A stretch of 64,000 nucleotides of DNA. Origin: an uncultured Lachnospiraceae bacterium. Its GTDB lineage: Bacteria > Bacillota > Clostridia > Lachnospirales > Lachnospiraceae. Where the stretch lies: assembly GCA_947629385.1 (NCBI GenBank), contig CANRDO010000010.1, positions 1 to 64,000 of the forward strand, given 5' to 3'. Made by a program: the position numbers and the translations under genes. This document shows positions 5,842 to 41,287 of this stretch, piece by piece. The number at the start of each line of letters is the position of its first letter. Positions within the stretch are counted from its first letter, which is position 1. Under the pieces are notes generated by a model. That model saw only the letters and a program-made list of their open reading frames with translations. It had not been told where the DNA came from and did no database searches.

Positions 5842-5857
5842 GAGATGATCTCCTCTG

Positions 5858-6048
5858 TTCGTGTTTAATTCACATATTGGCTACCCGGACGCCCTGCAAG
5901 GGCTTGCAATGTCAGGGCAGACCCGCTCGCGCTTAATCGGGCACGCAGCGGTGCATAAGCTCGCTTGCGCTCACCAAGCACCGGCGGCCCTCAATGATCT
6001 GCCCTGACACAGCAAGTCCCTTTTGCAGGGCTGTGCATTAAGCACGAA
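5858..6048. repeat. 190-bp palindromic repeat element
   Basis: The element fills the gap between two minus-strand genes. Its ends are inverted repeats: 5858-5874 against 6032-6048 (15 of 17 bases), then 5891-5921 against 5998-6031 (about 29 bases matching, with three single-base gaps). The left arm carries 16 extra bases (5875-5890). The centre has further stems (CCCG/CGGG and CGGTGC/GCACCG). The outer 34 bases (5858-5891) recur in inverted orientation at 41254-41287 with two mismatches. No coding capacity is seen. The layout suggests a non-autonomous mobile or REP-like repeat, although a regulatory RNA hairpin is also possible. Confidence 0.75.
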
Positions 6049-6049
6049 T

Positions 6050-7963
6050 TCATTGCGCAGCCACCAGCTCGATGAACTCCTGCTCAGGCACCGCCCTGGA
6101 ATAATACCAGCCCTGCAGATAGTGACAGCCCACCTTTGCGAGGTGCTCCCGCATTTCCTCTGTCTCGACGCCTTCCGCCACGATGCAGAGCTCGAGTGCG
6201 TTCAGCATACCAATCGTGTAGGAAAGCGTGATCCCGGCCTTCCGGCTCTTGAAGGAGTCCCAGATGATGTACTTGTCGATCTTGATCAGCTTGAACGGCA
6301 TACGGTTGATGTAGTCGATGTTGGCGTTCCCCGAGCCGTAATCGTCGAGGGAGAATGTGATGCCGAGCTCGACCAGCTCCTGGATGTTTTTCTGTACGAT
6401 CACGGAGGAATTGAAAGTGGTCATCTCCGTGATCTCGATGTTGATCTGCTGCGGTTTGACATTGTAGTCCTCAAGGATCCGCTTGAAGCGGTCCGCAAAT
6501 CCCGGCTGCCGCAGCTGGACGGGACTGATGTTTACCTCTATGTACTGTATGGTCGTATCCGCAAGGTGAAAATCCCGGATGAATTTGCAGACCTTTATGA
6601 GTATCATTTCGCCCATCTCGACGATCATGCCGTTTTTCTCCGCGATCGGGATGAAATCCTCCGGAGAGATCCAGCCAAGCACATCGTCGTTCAGGCGCAC
6701 GAGCGCTTCTGCGGAATTGTAGATATTATCCTTCACGGAAAAGATCGGCTGGTAGTACACCATCAGCTCATCGCGGTCCATCGCGTGCCTGATGGCGGCT
6801 TCGATCGCTTTTTCCTGTCTGAGCTTGGAGAGATCCAGATCACCGACATAGGTGACGCCGCCCTTTTTGGATTTCTTCGCAAGGCTGACCGAGTAGTCCA
6901 TGGTATCGATCATGGAGTCGTAGGAGTCTGCATCCTTCGGACACTCAATGTAGCAGAGAGACGCGGACATCATGATCTCCGTCCCTGCTTCCGTGCGCCA
7001 CGGATGATGGAAACGCTCCCGGATCTCCTCCGCGACGAAAGGAAGCTGGCCAAGCCGCTTGTCGATGACGAGATAGAACTGATCGGAGCCGAGCCGGAAC
7101 ACGACGCCGGACGAGCGGACTGTATTCAGATATTCGCCCACCTGGAACAGCAGAGAATCGCCAGCCTCTGCTCCGTAGGTTCTGTTGATGAATTTAAAAT
7201 CGTCCATTGCTACCGCGATGACGCCGAAAGGCTTGTCCTCCGAGAATTTTCCATATAAATATTCTCGCAGGAAGCGGCGGTTGAATTGCTTTGTGACCAT
7301 GTCGGTGACCGTTCCGGCGTTCTGCTGGTAGTGGAATAGCGTCAGGCAGACCGCGGTGATCATGAGATGCAGCATCGGGACATAGGCCGTCAGCTGAAGC
7401 GCCGCCATAATGACGCAGAATACAAGGGTAAAGAGAAGAGGACCGATCCGGAGAAATTGAAAATTCTTCCGAAAACGAATGATCGTGATGAGGCATATCA
7501 GGAACATGACAGCGTCGATCGCATACAGAATCAACGACGCATAGGAGATTCGGTATACGCCGTCCTCAAGCGTGAACGCCCAGTGTGTGAAATAGTTGAC
7601 GGCAAGAACAATAACTTCGATCGCAATCGCAGTGATGAAGAGAGAATGCTGGATCTTACTTTTCAGGATATTGATATGGGCCAGCTGCAAGATGTAGAAC
7701 GTGAAAGTGATACAGGTGATGTTGACCGCGAGATTTGACAGCGTGAGCGCGAAAAAAACGCTATTGTAGCCGACAACGTCTATATTGCGCATCATCCACG
7801 TGGCGACGATCTCAAGAGTCGCCGATAAGAGGTCGTTGATGAGCAGCACAAGGAAAGCCCTGTGACTGCGCAGGGGGACCATCTTCTCGCTGAAAAACCA
7901 GACGAGGATCAATAACAGGAGAAATACTGATGCGTAATCGAACGACAGGTTCCAGCCCGCCAT
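6050..7963 (-). CDS. Membrane protein with degenerate GGDEF and EAL domains (probable c-di-GMP phosphodiesterase)
   Basis: The 637-residue protein would break down the second messenger cyclic di-GMP at the membrane. Residues 1-210 hold about seven hydrophobic segments, a sensor-like membrane domain. A GGDEF domain (about 225-375) has GSDQF (292-296) in place of GGDEF, so it is unlikely to make c-di-GMP and may bind GTP. The EAL domain (about 385-630) keeps AEALVRL (EAL 419-421), EVNISP, IEITEM, the DDYGSG loop (540-545), KIDK and AEGVE, the residues that bind metal and substrate. The activity is inferred from these residues. It is the first gene of a possible two-gene unit with the methyltransferase downstream. 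Confidence 0.88.
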   Translation of the reverse strand: MAGWNLSFDYASVFLLLLILVWFFSEKMVPLRSHRAFLVLLINDLLSATLEIVATWMMRNIDVVGYNSVFFALTLSNLAVNITCITFTFYILQLAHINILKSKIQHSLFITAIAIEVIVLAVNYFTHWAFTLEDGVYRISYASLILYAIDAVMFLICLITIIRFRKNFQFLRIGPLLFTLVFCVIMAALQLTAYVPMLHLMITAVCLTLFHYQQNAGTVTDMVTKQFNRRFLREYLYGKFSEDKPFGVIAVAMDDFKFINRTYGAEAGDSLLFQVGEYLNTVRSSGVVFRLGSDQFYLVIDKRLGQLPFVAEEIRERFHHPWRTEAGTEIMMSASLCYIECPKDADSYDSMIDTMDYSVSLAKKSKKGGVTYVGDLDLSKLRQEKAIEAAIRHAMDRDELMVYYQPIFSVKDNIYNSAEALVRLNDDVLGWISPEDFIPIAEKNGMIVEMGEMILIKVCKFIRDFHLADTTIQYIEVNISPVQLRQPGFADRFKRILEDYNVKPQQINIEITEMTTFNSSVIVQKNIQELVELGITFSLDDYGSGNANIDYINRMPFKLIKIDKYIIWDSFKSRKAGITLSYTIGMLNALELCIVAEGVETEEMREHLAKVGCHYLQGWYYSRAVPEQEFIELVAAQ

Positions 7964-9306: not shown

Positions 9307-9347
9307 GGCAAAGCTGTGACATGATAGCTGTGAAGCGTGAGGTTGCT

Positions 9348-9502
9348 GCAGTGCCCACCACTGCGGGTTTTCCGTGGAGCGAATGTCAAGTTATCGAAAC
9401 TGGCGACAAGTCACTGTACAAAATTTTAATGGTTCGAAAGCTTTCGAACACCGTGTGAGAGATGAGGATACACACGGGTGAGTGTACAGTCACCGCTTGT
9501 CG
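9348..9502 (+). promoter_or_regulatory. Structured leader RNA of the S10 operon
   Basis: The leader folds into defined stems. A first hairpin is GCAGTG/CACTGC (9348-9353, 9359-9364) followed by GTTTTCC. Then a three-way junction is closed by CGACAAG/CTTGTCG (9404-9410, 9496-9502) and ACTGTAC/GTACAGT (9413-9419, 9484-9490). It contains a hairpin on the perfect 18-base palindrome 9432-9449 and a hairpin CCGTGTG/CACACGG (9451-9457, 9471-9477). S10 operon leaders are classically the target of feedback by a ribosomal protein (L4 in E. coli). That role is inferred here from position and structure. Confidence 0.7.
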
Positions 9503-16138: not shown

Positions 16139-16324
16139 ATGGCAAAAACAGCAATGAAAATCAAACAGCAGCGCAAACAGAAATTCTCCACGAGAGAGTA
16201 CACACGCTGCAGAATCTGCGGTCGTCCGCATGCATACCTGAGAAAGTACGGCATCTGCCGTATCTGCTTCCGCGAGCTGGCATACAAGGGCCAGATCCCG
16301 GGCGTGAGAAAAGCATCTTGGTGA
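16139..16324 (+). CDS. rpsN: Ribosomal protein S14, zinc type
   Basis: S14 (61 residues) is the short zinc-ribbon form. Cys24, Cys27, Cys40 and Cys43 form the CxxC-x12-CxxC zinc site in [20 protein letters not shown]. It sits in the 30S head. It ends 184 bases before rpsH, an unusually long gap inside this operon that holds a hairpin-rich element. Confidence 0.97.
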
Positions 16325-16500
16325 GACCGAAAGCAAGTGGCATTGAGCATTTGACGAAAACGAGCGAAGCGAAGTTTGAGTTTAGTGCGAAAGCCCACCT
16401 GGGCACTTGACGAGTGCCAAGCGAAGCGCGGCGGCGAGTATAGTGACCATGGTGTTGCCGCTTGAAAACGTTATGTATAAGTCTGATTTTAATTAGGAGG
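16325..16500. repeat. Hairpin-rich non-coding insert between rpsN and rpsH
   Basis: The 184-base gap breaks otherwise tight spacing in the operon. It contains the stems GCCC/GGGC (16393-16396, 16401-16404) and GGCACT/AGTGCC (16402-16407, 16413-16418), which compete with each other, and several copies of the motif GCGAAGCG. No ORF or promoter is convincing. It resembles other structured intergenic stretches here but shares no long identity with them. Confidence 0.45.
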
Positions 16501-23011: not shown

Positions 23012-23386
23012 CGACCAACGGCGGAGCGCCGCGCGGTTTGCGGTGTGAAAACGGGACGGATATCCGTACCCGGACATTCAATATAACGATGGAATAGATC
23101 CGCCTGTGTCATCCGTTCAGATGGATGCGGGGCAGGCGTTGACTTATAGAGACAGTTGTAACTGTTTAGCCGGTCCGGATTTTATTTCGTTGCGATATTG
23201 ATTTTAATACTGTTCCAGGATCAGGCAGTTCAAGGCCTGTGCCGACCGCTGTGCACAGGACCAGATGCCGCGCAGGGGCGAATGACGAGGCCCGCAGCTT
23301 AATGGAGCAGAAAGGCCGTCTTTTGACGGCTGGACAGCTATGCCTGTCCCAATTAGAACCAATAAAGAAGATGGAGGAGAAATTAC
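23012..23386 (+). promoter_or_regulatory. Long structured leader before rpsM
   Basis: This 375-base gap has no ORF but several stems: CGGG/CCCG around the palindrome ACGGATATCCGT (23056-23067); CGCCTG/CAGGCG around CATCC/GGATG (23101-23138); ACAGTT/AACTGT (23152-23165); and, just before rpsM, GCCGTC-TTTT-GACGGC (23315-23330) and GGACAG/CTGTCC (23332-23349). A TTGACT at 23139 has no good -10 partner. In E. coli S4 represses the alpha operon at the rpsM leader; rpsD lies in this operon too, so a similar role is a reasonable inference. Confidence 0.55.
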
Positions 23387-39869: not shown

Positions 39870-41264
39870 ATGGAACAGCCTGACAGAAATGCACAGGCGC
39901 AGGCGCGGACACAGACGGATCAGCTCGGCACGGAGCCGGTCGGGCGTCTGCTGTTTCGGCTTGCCGCGCCGGCAATCGCGGCGCAGCTCATTAATCTTTT
40001 ATACAATCTGGTGGATCGAATCTACATCGGCCACATCGCGGGGGTCGGGCAGATGGCGCTGACGGGCGTCGGCGTCTGCGTGCCGCTGATCACGCTGATC
40101 TCCGCGTTTGCGAGCCTGGTCGGCATGGGCAGCGCGCCGCGGGCTTCGATCTTTCTGGGAAAGGGAGACAAGGATAGGGCGGAGCAGACGCTCGGTAATT
40201 CCGTCACGCTGCTGACGCTGATCGCAGTGGTGCTGACGGCTGTCTTCCTGCTGTTTTCGCGGAATATGCTGCTGATGTTCGGCGCGAGCGAGAACACGAT
40301 CGGCTATGCGGTGGACTACATGCGGATCTACAGCCTCGGCACGCTCTTCGTACAGTTTACACTGGGGCTGAATATGTTCATCACAGCGCAAGGCTTTGCG
40401 AAGACCAGCATGTTGACGGTGATGATCGGAGCGATCTGCAACATCATTCTGGATCCAATTTTTATTTTCGTGCTGAAGCTTGGCGTGTCGGGCGCGGCGC
40501 TCGCCACGATCCTCTCGCAAGGTGTGTCGATGGTCTGGATCCTGCGTTTTCTGACCGGGTCGAAGACGGTGCTGCGCATCCGAAAGGCAAACCTGAAGCT
40601 CTCCGCAGAGATCATCCTGCCGGCGGTGGCGCTCGGGCTCTCGCCGTTCATCATGATGTCAACGGAGAGCCTGCTGTCGATCTGCTTCAATTCATCCCTG
40701 TTGAAGTATGGCGGCGATATCGCGGTGACGACGATGACGATCGCCTCGAGCGTGATGCAGTTCTCGCTGATGCCATTGCAGGGTCTGACGCAGGGTTCCC
40801 AGCCGATCGTCAGCTATAATTTCGGCGCGCGCAATATGCTTCGGGTGAAGCAGGCGTTTCGCATTCTGCTTACGGCCAGTCTGTGCTATTCGATGACGTT
40901 GTGGGCGCTCGCGATGTTTGCGCCGCAGATGTTTATTCACATGTTCAACAGTGATCCGGAGCTCATCGAATTCGCGGTTCCGTGCCTGCGGATCTATATG
41001 CTGATGACAGGAATTTTCGGAATTCAGATTGCGTGTCAGCAGACCTTCATCGCGCTCGGCAACGCGAAGAATTCGCTGTTTCTGGCGCTGCTGCGCAAGA
41101 TCATCCTGCTGATTCCGCTGATCTACCTCATGCCGGCGATCTTCCCGGCGGATAAGACGCGCGCGGTCTTCACGGCGGAGCCGGTCGCGGATTTCCTTGC
41201 GGTGATGACGACAGCGTGCATGTTTGCGTCGTATTTCCGGAAGATTATGCGGACGTCCGGGTAG
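39870..41264 (+). CDS. MATE family efflux transporter
   Basis: This 464-residue membrane protein has about 12 hydrophobic helices in two MatE repeats (about 20-225 and 245-455) and would export drugs or metabolites against a Na+ or H+ gradient. LFRLAAPAIAAQLINLLYNL and VDRIYIGHIAGVGQMALTGV are the N-terminal signature, and GLTQGSQPIVSYNFGARNM is the second-repeat counterpart. Its last three codons and the TAG stop are part of the 34-base repeat at 41254-41287, so the natural C-terminus may have been replaced. Substrate unknown. Confidence 0.93.
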   Translation: MEQPDRNAQAQARTQTDQLGTEPVGRLLFRLAAPAIAAQLINLLYNLVDRIYIGHIAGVGQMALTGVGVCVPLITLISAFASLVGMGSAPRASIFLGKGDKDRAEQTLGNSVTLLTLIAVVLTAVFLLFSRNMLLMFGASENTIGYAVDYMRIYSLGTLFVQFTLGLNMFITAQGFAKTSMLTVMIGAICNIILDPIFIFVLKLGVSGAALATILSQGVSMVWILRFLTGSKTVLRIRKANLKLSAEIILPAVALGLSPFIMMSTESLLSICFNSSLLKYGGDIAVTTMTIASSVMQFSLMPLQGLTQGSQPIVSYNFGARNMLRVKQAFRILLTASLCYSMTLWALAMFAPQMFIHMFNSDPELIEFAVPCLRIYMLMTGIFGIQIACQQTFIALGNAKNSLFLALLRKIILLIPLIYLMPAIFPADKTRAVFTAEPVADFLAVMTTACMFASYFRKIMRTSG

Positions 41265-41287
41265 CCAATATGTGAATTGAGCACGAA
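41254..41287. repeat. Solo end of the palindromic repeat element
   Basis: These 34 bases match the reverse complement of 5858-5891 at 32 positions (it starts CGTCCGGGTAGCCAATATGT). The copy contains the stop codon of the MATE gene and ends 22 bases before the uvrC start. The copy at 5858 likewise ends 16 bases before a gene start in the same relative orientation. See findings. Confidence 0.8.

Follow-up and report, generated by a model that had tools for sequence, protein, structure and literature searches.

A family of short framed palindromes with differing interiors, probably mobile, in a genus of Lachnospiraceae

The 191-bp element at positions 5858–6048 of the window, as we call the whole 64,000-nucleotide stretch of DNA analyzed here, probably belongs to a genus-level family of mobile palindromes that are short and non-coding and in which a conserved frame encloses exchangeable cores. 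Dispersal of the copies, presence or absence between close species, mosaicism, replacement of the interior with the ends kept, a lack of target-site duplication and covariation of the stem were all observed directly. The replacement of interiors, whereby the hairpin at a given slot differs from species to species, is invisible from the window alone.

Small palindromic repeats are common in bacteria; to our knowledge, how they move and keep their shape has for the most part not been explained, above all for the CGTC-tagged kind. Among the closely related species compared here, one slot appears to have been filled, emptied and refilled with other hairpins while its ends were kept, and modules combine freely. 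Comparison of slots amounts to a natural experiment that can tell exchange of the interior apart from insertion at new sites, and the defined end sequence can serve as a handle in the search for the enzyme. No earlier description of the family in Lachnospiraceae was found in the open-access literature.

The window element and the anatomy of the family

Direct reading of the sequence gave a near-complete inverted repeat of 191 bp, as originally predicted except for the size, which had been put at 190 bp; positions 5858–5874 match the reverse complement of 6032–6048 at 15 of 17 bases. Two minus-strand genes border the element, which fits exactly between the stop codon of the one and the ribosome-binding site of the other. 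One base separates it from the stop codon (6050–6052) of the first, a GGDEF-EAL gene, and its other side directly adjoins the ribosome-binding site of the second, a gene for a SAM-dependent methyltransferase (start 5841). Its boundaries are sharp against unrelated flanks. The left frame end, TTCGTGTTTAATTCAC (5858–5873, plus strand), has its outer 10 bp most conserved between species, and the right frame end, read as TTCGTGCTTAATGCAC (6033–6048, minus strand), is the left end inverted. A linker (5874–5886, plus strand), of which other copies carry variants, joins frame and tag on one side only; for this reason the 16-base block 5875–5890 is present in the left arm and in the solo copy described below and missing from the right arm, as had been noticed. 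The GGACG tag at the hairpin foot (5887–5891, plus strand; CGTCC on the minus strand) has the same position in hairpins A, B and C and in hairpins of other species. It is followed by hairpin A (5891–6031, plus strand), a long imperfect stem-loop whose foot pairs 5891–5898 with 6024–6031. A 216-nt stretch around the element was predicted to fold into a single long hairpin (−105.5 kcal/mol, z = −6.9, matched by 0 of 200 shuffles), with z = −6.3 for the plus strand of the element.

The predicted recurrence of the outer 34 bases was also confirmed, with 32 of 34 positions identical between 5858–5891 and the reverse complement of 41254–41287. The two places share an exact 25-mer found nowhere else in the window, and the chance of such a repeat within 64 kb is estimated at about 4 × 10⁻⁶. 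The copy at 41254–41287 (minus strand) is a one-ended remnant with a truncated end, which overlaps the 3′ end of a MATE gene and now provides its stop codon (TAG, 41262–41264). In the orthologous slot, the related genome G069 has a longer element running off the start of a contig, and G035 has unrelated sequence.

Copies of the family are non-coding and intergenic and are 26–580 bp long. The frame, TTCGTGTWTARTKCAC ... GTGMAYTAWACACGAA, has sharp boundaries (TTCGTG and CACGAA) and encloses, inward of a short linker, one or two hairpins, usually with the GGACG tag at the foot. The shorter forms are an empty 26-bp palindrome (two 10-bp arms around a 6-bp centre), a 57-bp form, a form of about 164–224 bp with hairpin D and the 191-bp form with hairpin A; larger and other forms are A with an 82-bp insert, A+B, A+C, A+E+B and C alone. 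Hairpins A, B, C and others have GGACG/CGTCC unpaired at the foot, and hairpin D is without it; in two-hairpin forms the tags point outwards. The palindromes are nested, since hairpins B and C have an inner hairpin in common but differ in their outer stems. Hairpins of other sequence occur inside the same ends in G004, G016 and G035 (slot L013). G004 (loci L116–L129) has about 36 frame ends with unrelated hairpins, the non-coding elements reaching about 790 bp. At positions 1–1650 of locus L099 (contig C71 of the window's own genome, G000), degenerate family copies flank a single gene that by eye resembles CapK/phenylacetate-CoA ligases.

Reshuffling of modules was followed in two-hairpin elements through five two-state features, namely the linker, the 82-bp insert, B or C, a 25-bp insert and E. 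All four combinations were present for 8 of 10 feature pairs, a result that requires either repeated gain and loss or recombination among the copies. When A hairpins at orthologous slots of G000 and G069 were compared, their mean distance was slightly below that of random pairs (12 of 720 permutations gave a value as low), so that either exchange of interiors is incomplete or the sample is small.

Copies, distribution and orthologous slots

G000, a 3.24-Mb draft in 104 contigs, was examined through searches and selected stretches. About 27 separate places in it match 5850–6060, many with 90–99% identity along almost the entire query. The 16-bp end TTCGTGTWTARTKCAC, common to elements with unrelated interiors, occurs there in 38 exact copies and in 60 with at most two mismatches, against 0 and 6 for a reversed-pattern control. 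With at most one mismatch, this end is abundant in 7 of the 47 genomes of the genus (71 copies in G069, 49 in G000, 36 each in G004 and G029, 20 in G035, 15 in G009 and 11 in G016) and is present in about 10, with 8 copies in G005, 4 in G023 and 3 in G070; the remaining genomes of the genus have 0–2. This patchy distribution inside the genus supports a mobile family. Across the 297 other genera of the bacterial family, the frame end did not exceed chance, with a single match in each of three genomes. When 84,980 species genomes were scanned for the end plus the tag, the only matches were in uncultured Lachnospiraceae MAGs labelled 'Lapin', presumably for rabbit gut, and in one Sphingomonadales contig, whose single match is probably due to chance. 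Collections of phages, plasmids and viral contigs gave zero matches to the element, and a phage or plasmid element was ruled out on this basis.

Orthologous slots were compared by searching the joined flanks of 16 G000 loci against G069, G029 and G035, and those of eight G069 loci against G000. Slots L003, L005, L010, L140 and L152 are element-free in a relative, where the element-free state could in part reflect deletion. Where both G000 and G069 have an element in the slot, with flanks mostly 92–98% identical, the architecture is the same at L001, L009 and L075 and differs at L002, L004, L007, L016, L021, L062, L076 and L090, the state of L076 on the G069 side having been deduced from a contig break. 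Empty 26-bp frames were found in orthologous places (L075 and L143; L076). The original prediction, that the element is a non-autonomous mobile repeat marked by a characteristic end, is thus upheld by about 27 copies, 38 exact ends and element-free sites in close relatives. Further observations concern the surroundings of single slots. Around 631–1131 of L140 (contig C7 of G069), the 3′ end of the upstream gene lies beside the element twice, in diverged form, as if gene and element had been added there together, and L052 and L152 have the downstream gene, and not the upstream gene, in common.

At the slot of the window element, eight related species were compared. G000 and G069 both have hairpin A, with 0 differences over 191 bp next to flanks that differ at 12 of 295 positions, and G029 has a variant of hairpin A. 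In G023 the slot holds hairpin D within unchanged boundaries (CTCCTCTG/TTCGTG ... CGCGAA/TTTA, with slashes at the element edges), G009, G005 and G035 retain remnants, and G016 has 10 bp and no element. What the eight species have in common is the slot and not its content. At about 1575–1740 of L216 (G000:C52:12760–12927), a second palindromic element with the ends GTTTTGCCAT...ATGGCAAAAC was seen in a slot that holds a framed element in G069, and several hairpin families may share slots.

All data come from short-read metagenome draft assemblies (the named genomes are MAGs), in which contigs often break at repeats; more than 10 contigs of G000 end within an element, and mosaic interiors could in part be chimeric or short-read assembly artefacts. 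Such an origin is hard to reconcile with the differences at L002, L090 and L013 or with the replacement, at the window slot, of hairpin A (G000) by D (G023), given that unrelated interiors lie there between syntenic flanks.

Insertion, fold and competing explanations

Many copies and empty sites in relatives, both anticipated for a mobile repeat, were found; target-site duplications, also anticipated, were not, since none of 1–10 bp was seen in 46 elements and shifted boundaries likewise gave nothing consistent. The flanks have a degenerate, AT-rich preference, with A/C at −1 in 78 of 92, A/T at −2 in 81 of 92 (C once) and T at −4 in 52 of 92, counts whose independence is limited by some orthologous elements among them; the same pattern was obtained from the 53 ends of G000 alone. 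In the end searches of G000 and in 0.76 Mb of fetched DNA, draft assemblies whose contigs break at repeats, neither a frame pair bearing an ORF nor an IS with frame ends was found. Among the ends listed, the only pairs 0.64–4.5 kb apart enclose a non-coding 792-bp stretch in G004 or belong to two adjoining, separate elements in G016. These results bear on the reading as a classical MITE, that is, an internally deleted IS derivative on whose 16-bp terminal inverted repeats a DDE transposase acts. Although the terminal inverted repeats, the size, the want of coding capacity and the dispersed, near-identical copies suit it, we consider this reading unlikely, given the missing duplication, the missing ORF and interiors that are mutually unrelated hairpins and not IS remnants. 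The label "MITE or REP-like" proposed at the outset has to be narrowed accordingly: the element is no textbook MITE, with no duplication and no matching IS found, and belongs to no known REP family, the tag being present as in REPs but the stems long and a RAYT association absent.

The tag also enters into a REPIN-like explanation, in which single-stranded hairpins would be spread in trans by a RAYT/Y1 HUH transposase. A CGTC-type tag at the hairpin foot, better folding of one strand, single and double forms with tags outward and the lack of target-site duplication all agree with it, but a Y1 transposase is absent from the element-rich genomes G029, G035, G016 and G004, is present as a fragment in G069 and is common in genomes without elements, while that of G000 is an IS200-type gene in unrelated surroundings with no frame ends around it. 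A RAYT/Y1 mobiliser was rejected for this lack of co-occurrence with the family, and the REPIN-like reading as a whole appears quite improbable. The empty 26-bp frames at orthologous places, their construction from two arms and a centre, and the unrelated interiors inside identical boundaries would also be expected if the 26-bp palindrome were a site-specific chromosomal landing place at which a recombinase inserts, removes and exchanges hairpins, a gene-less cassette system. If this were true, fixed intergenic slots would be repeatedly refilled with different structured elements. Occupied elements have one frame end per side, however, whereas simple integration would leave two complete sites; no hairpins were seen outside frames, and deletion by slippage also predicts empty frames. 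We therefore regard a landing place as very unlikely.

For the fold, 18 divergent copies of hairpin A from 7 genomes were aligned. Of the cells, 96.7% were paired, and 14 of 41 pairs had changes on both sides; double-changed cells numbered 57, versus 21 in shuffles and 0–7 with slid partners. Of the two strands, the one in which CGTC lies 3′ of the hairpin is the better folder (−51.5 versus −35.6 kcal/mol by alifold). Such strong covariation, a location between stop codon and ribosome-binding site, and a window copy unchanged between two species whose flanks differ by 4% would fit a conserved cis-regulatory or leader RNA of the adjoining genes, and a family of structured leaders had been the other half of the original prediction. 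Orientation of the hairpin relative to tandem genes, however, is 10:10 (from gene calls that are crude longest-ORF picks), so that the fold, although maintained, does not act as a strand-specific leader for the adjoining genes. The neighbouring genes of the copies are unrelated, copies also follow stop codons, sister species have an unrelated hairpin or a loss at the same slot, and Rfam gave no match to the element at the gathering threshold or at E up to 10. On the unrelated neighbours, the orientation and the Rfam result, a leader or riboswitch RNA was dismissed as highly improbable. Elsewhere in the window, Rfam recognized known S10-Clostridia and S4-Clostridia ribosomal protein leaders at 9322–9409 and 23310–23357. 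An unusual hairpin-rich stretch at 16310–16475, between two ribosomal protein genes and apparently in the S14–S8 gap, is single-copy in the genome and hence not part of the element family.

For the mobile palindromes with exchangeable cores that we favor, new slots would be occupied through a trans-acting enzyme that recognizes either the frame or the strand in its folded state and whose insertions leave the target DNA unduplicated. Later recombination, or template switching during replication, between dispersed copies could be anchored in the common ends and would swap or delete the interior, with 26-bp empty frames and one-ended remnants such as 41254–41287 as the presumed deletion products. 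Intergenic slots between a stop codon and a ribosome-binding site would be kept because most other insertions damage genes.

Comparison with known systems

In Streptococcus pneumoniae and S. suis, BOX elements measure 67–637 bp and have conserved end modules with variable inner modules (PMC3049150). Like the present family they form hairpins, are intergenic and change length at fixed loci between strains, but they have target-site duplications and vary mainly in boxB copy number (PMC3049150), whereas the family described here lacks duplications, consists of nested palindromes and has had hairpins replaced by unrelated ones. The likeness, drawn by description, is one of analogous design and not of homology. 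CGTC-tagged REPs, for example of Halothiobacillus neapolitanus, form dimers framed by palindromes and have no known dedicated transposase (PMC3733652). They share the CGTC-type foot tag, single and double forms and a conserved outer palindrome, but have stems of 8–9 bp, a consensus of their own and units of 20–40 bp (PMC3733652), compared with about 140 nt for hairpin A. Empty outer palindromes exist in the present family and were not found in CGTC REPs, which are recorded in Proteobacteria, Chlorobi, Bacteroidetes, Spirochaetes and Thermotogae and not in Firmicutes (PMC3733652).

MITEs, of which RUP, ERIC and NEMIS are named examples (PMC3733652), are likewise short, non-coding, bounded by terminal inverted repeats and placed between genes; the present family differs in that neither a target-site duplication nor a partner IS was found for it. 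REPIN/RAYT systems and BIMEs resemble it in their tagged palindromes, mosaic and double forms and intergenic location (PMC3116915, PMC2817692), but the present family has a tag other than GTAG, its distribution does not follow that of RAYTs, and its copies are fewer and much longer. As it fails the target-site test for MITEs and the stem and RAYT tests for REPs, the family is filed under neither, and it is best read as a variant of mosaic palindromic interspersed repeats that works like BOX elements, MITEs or REPINs.
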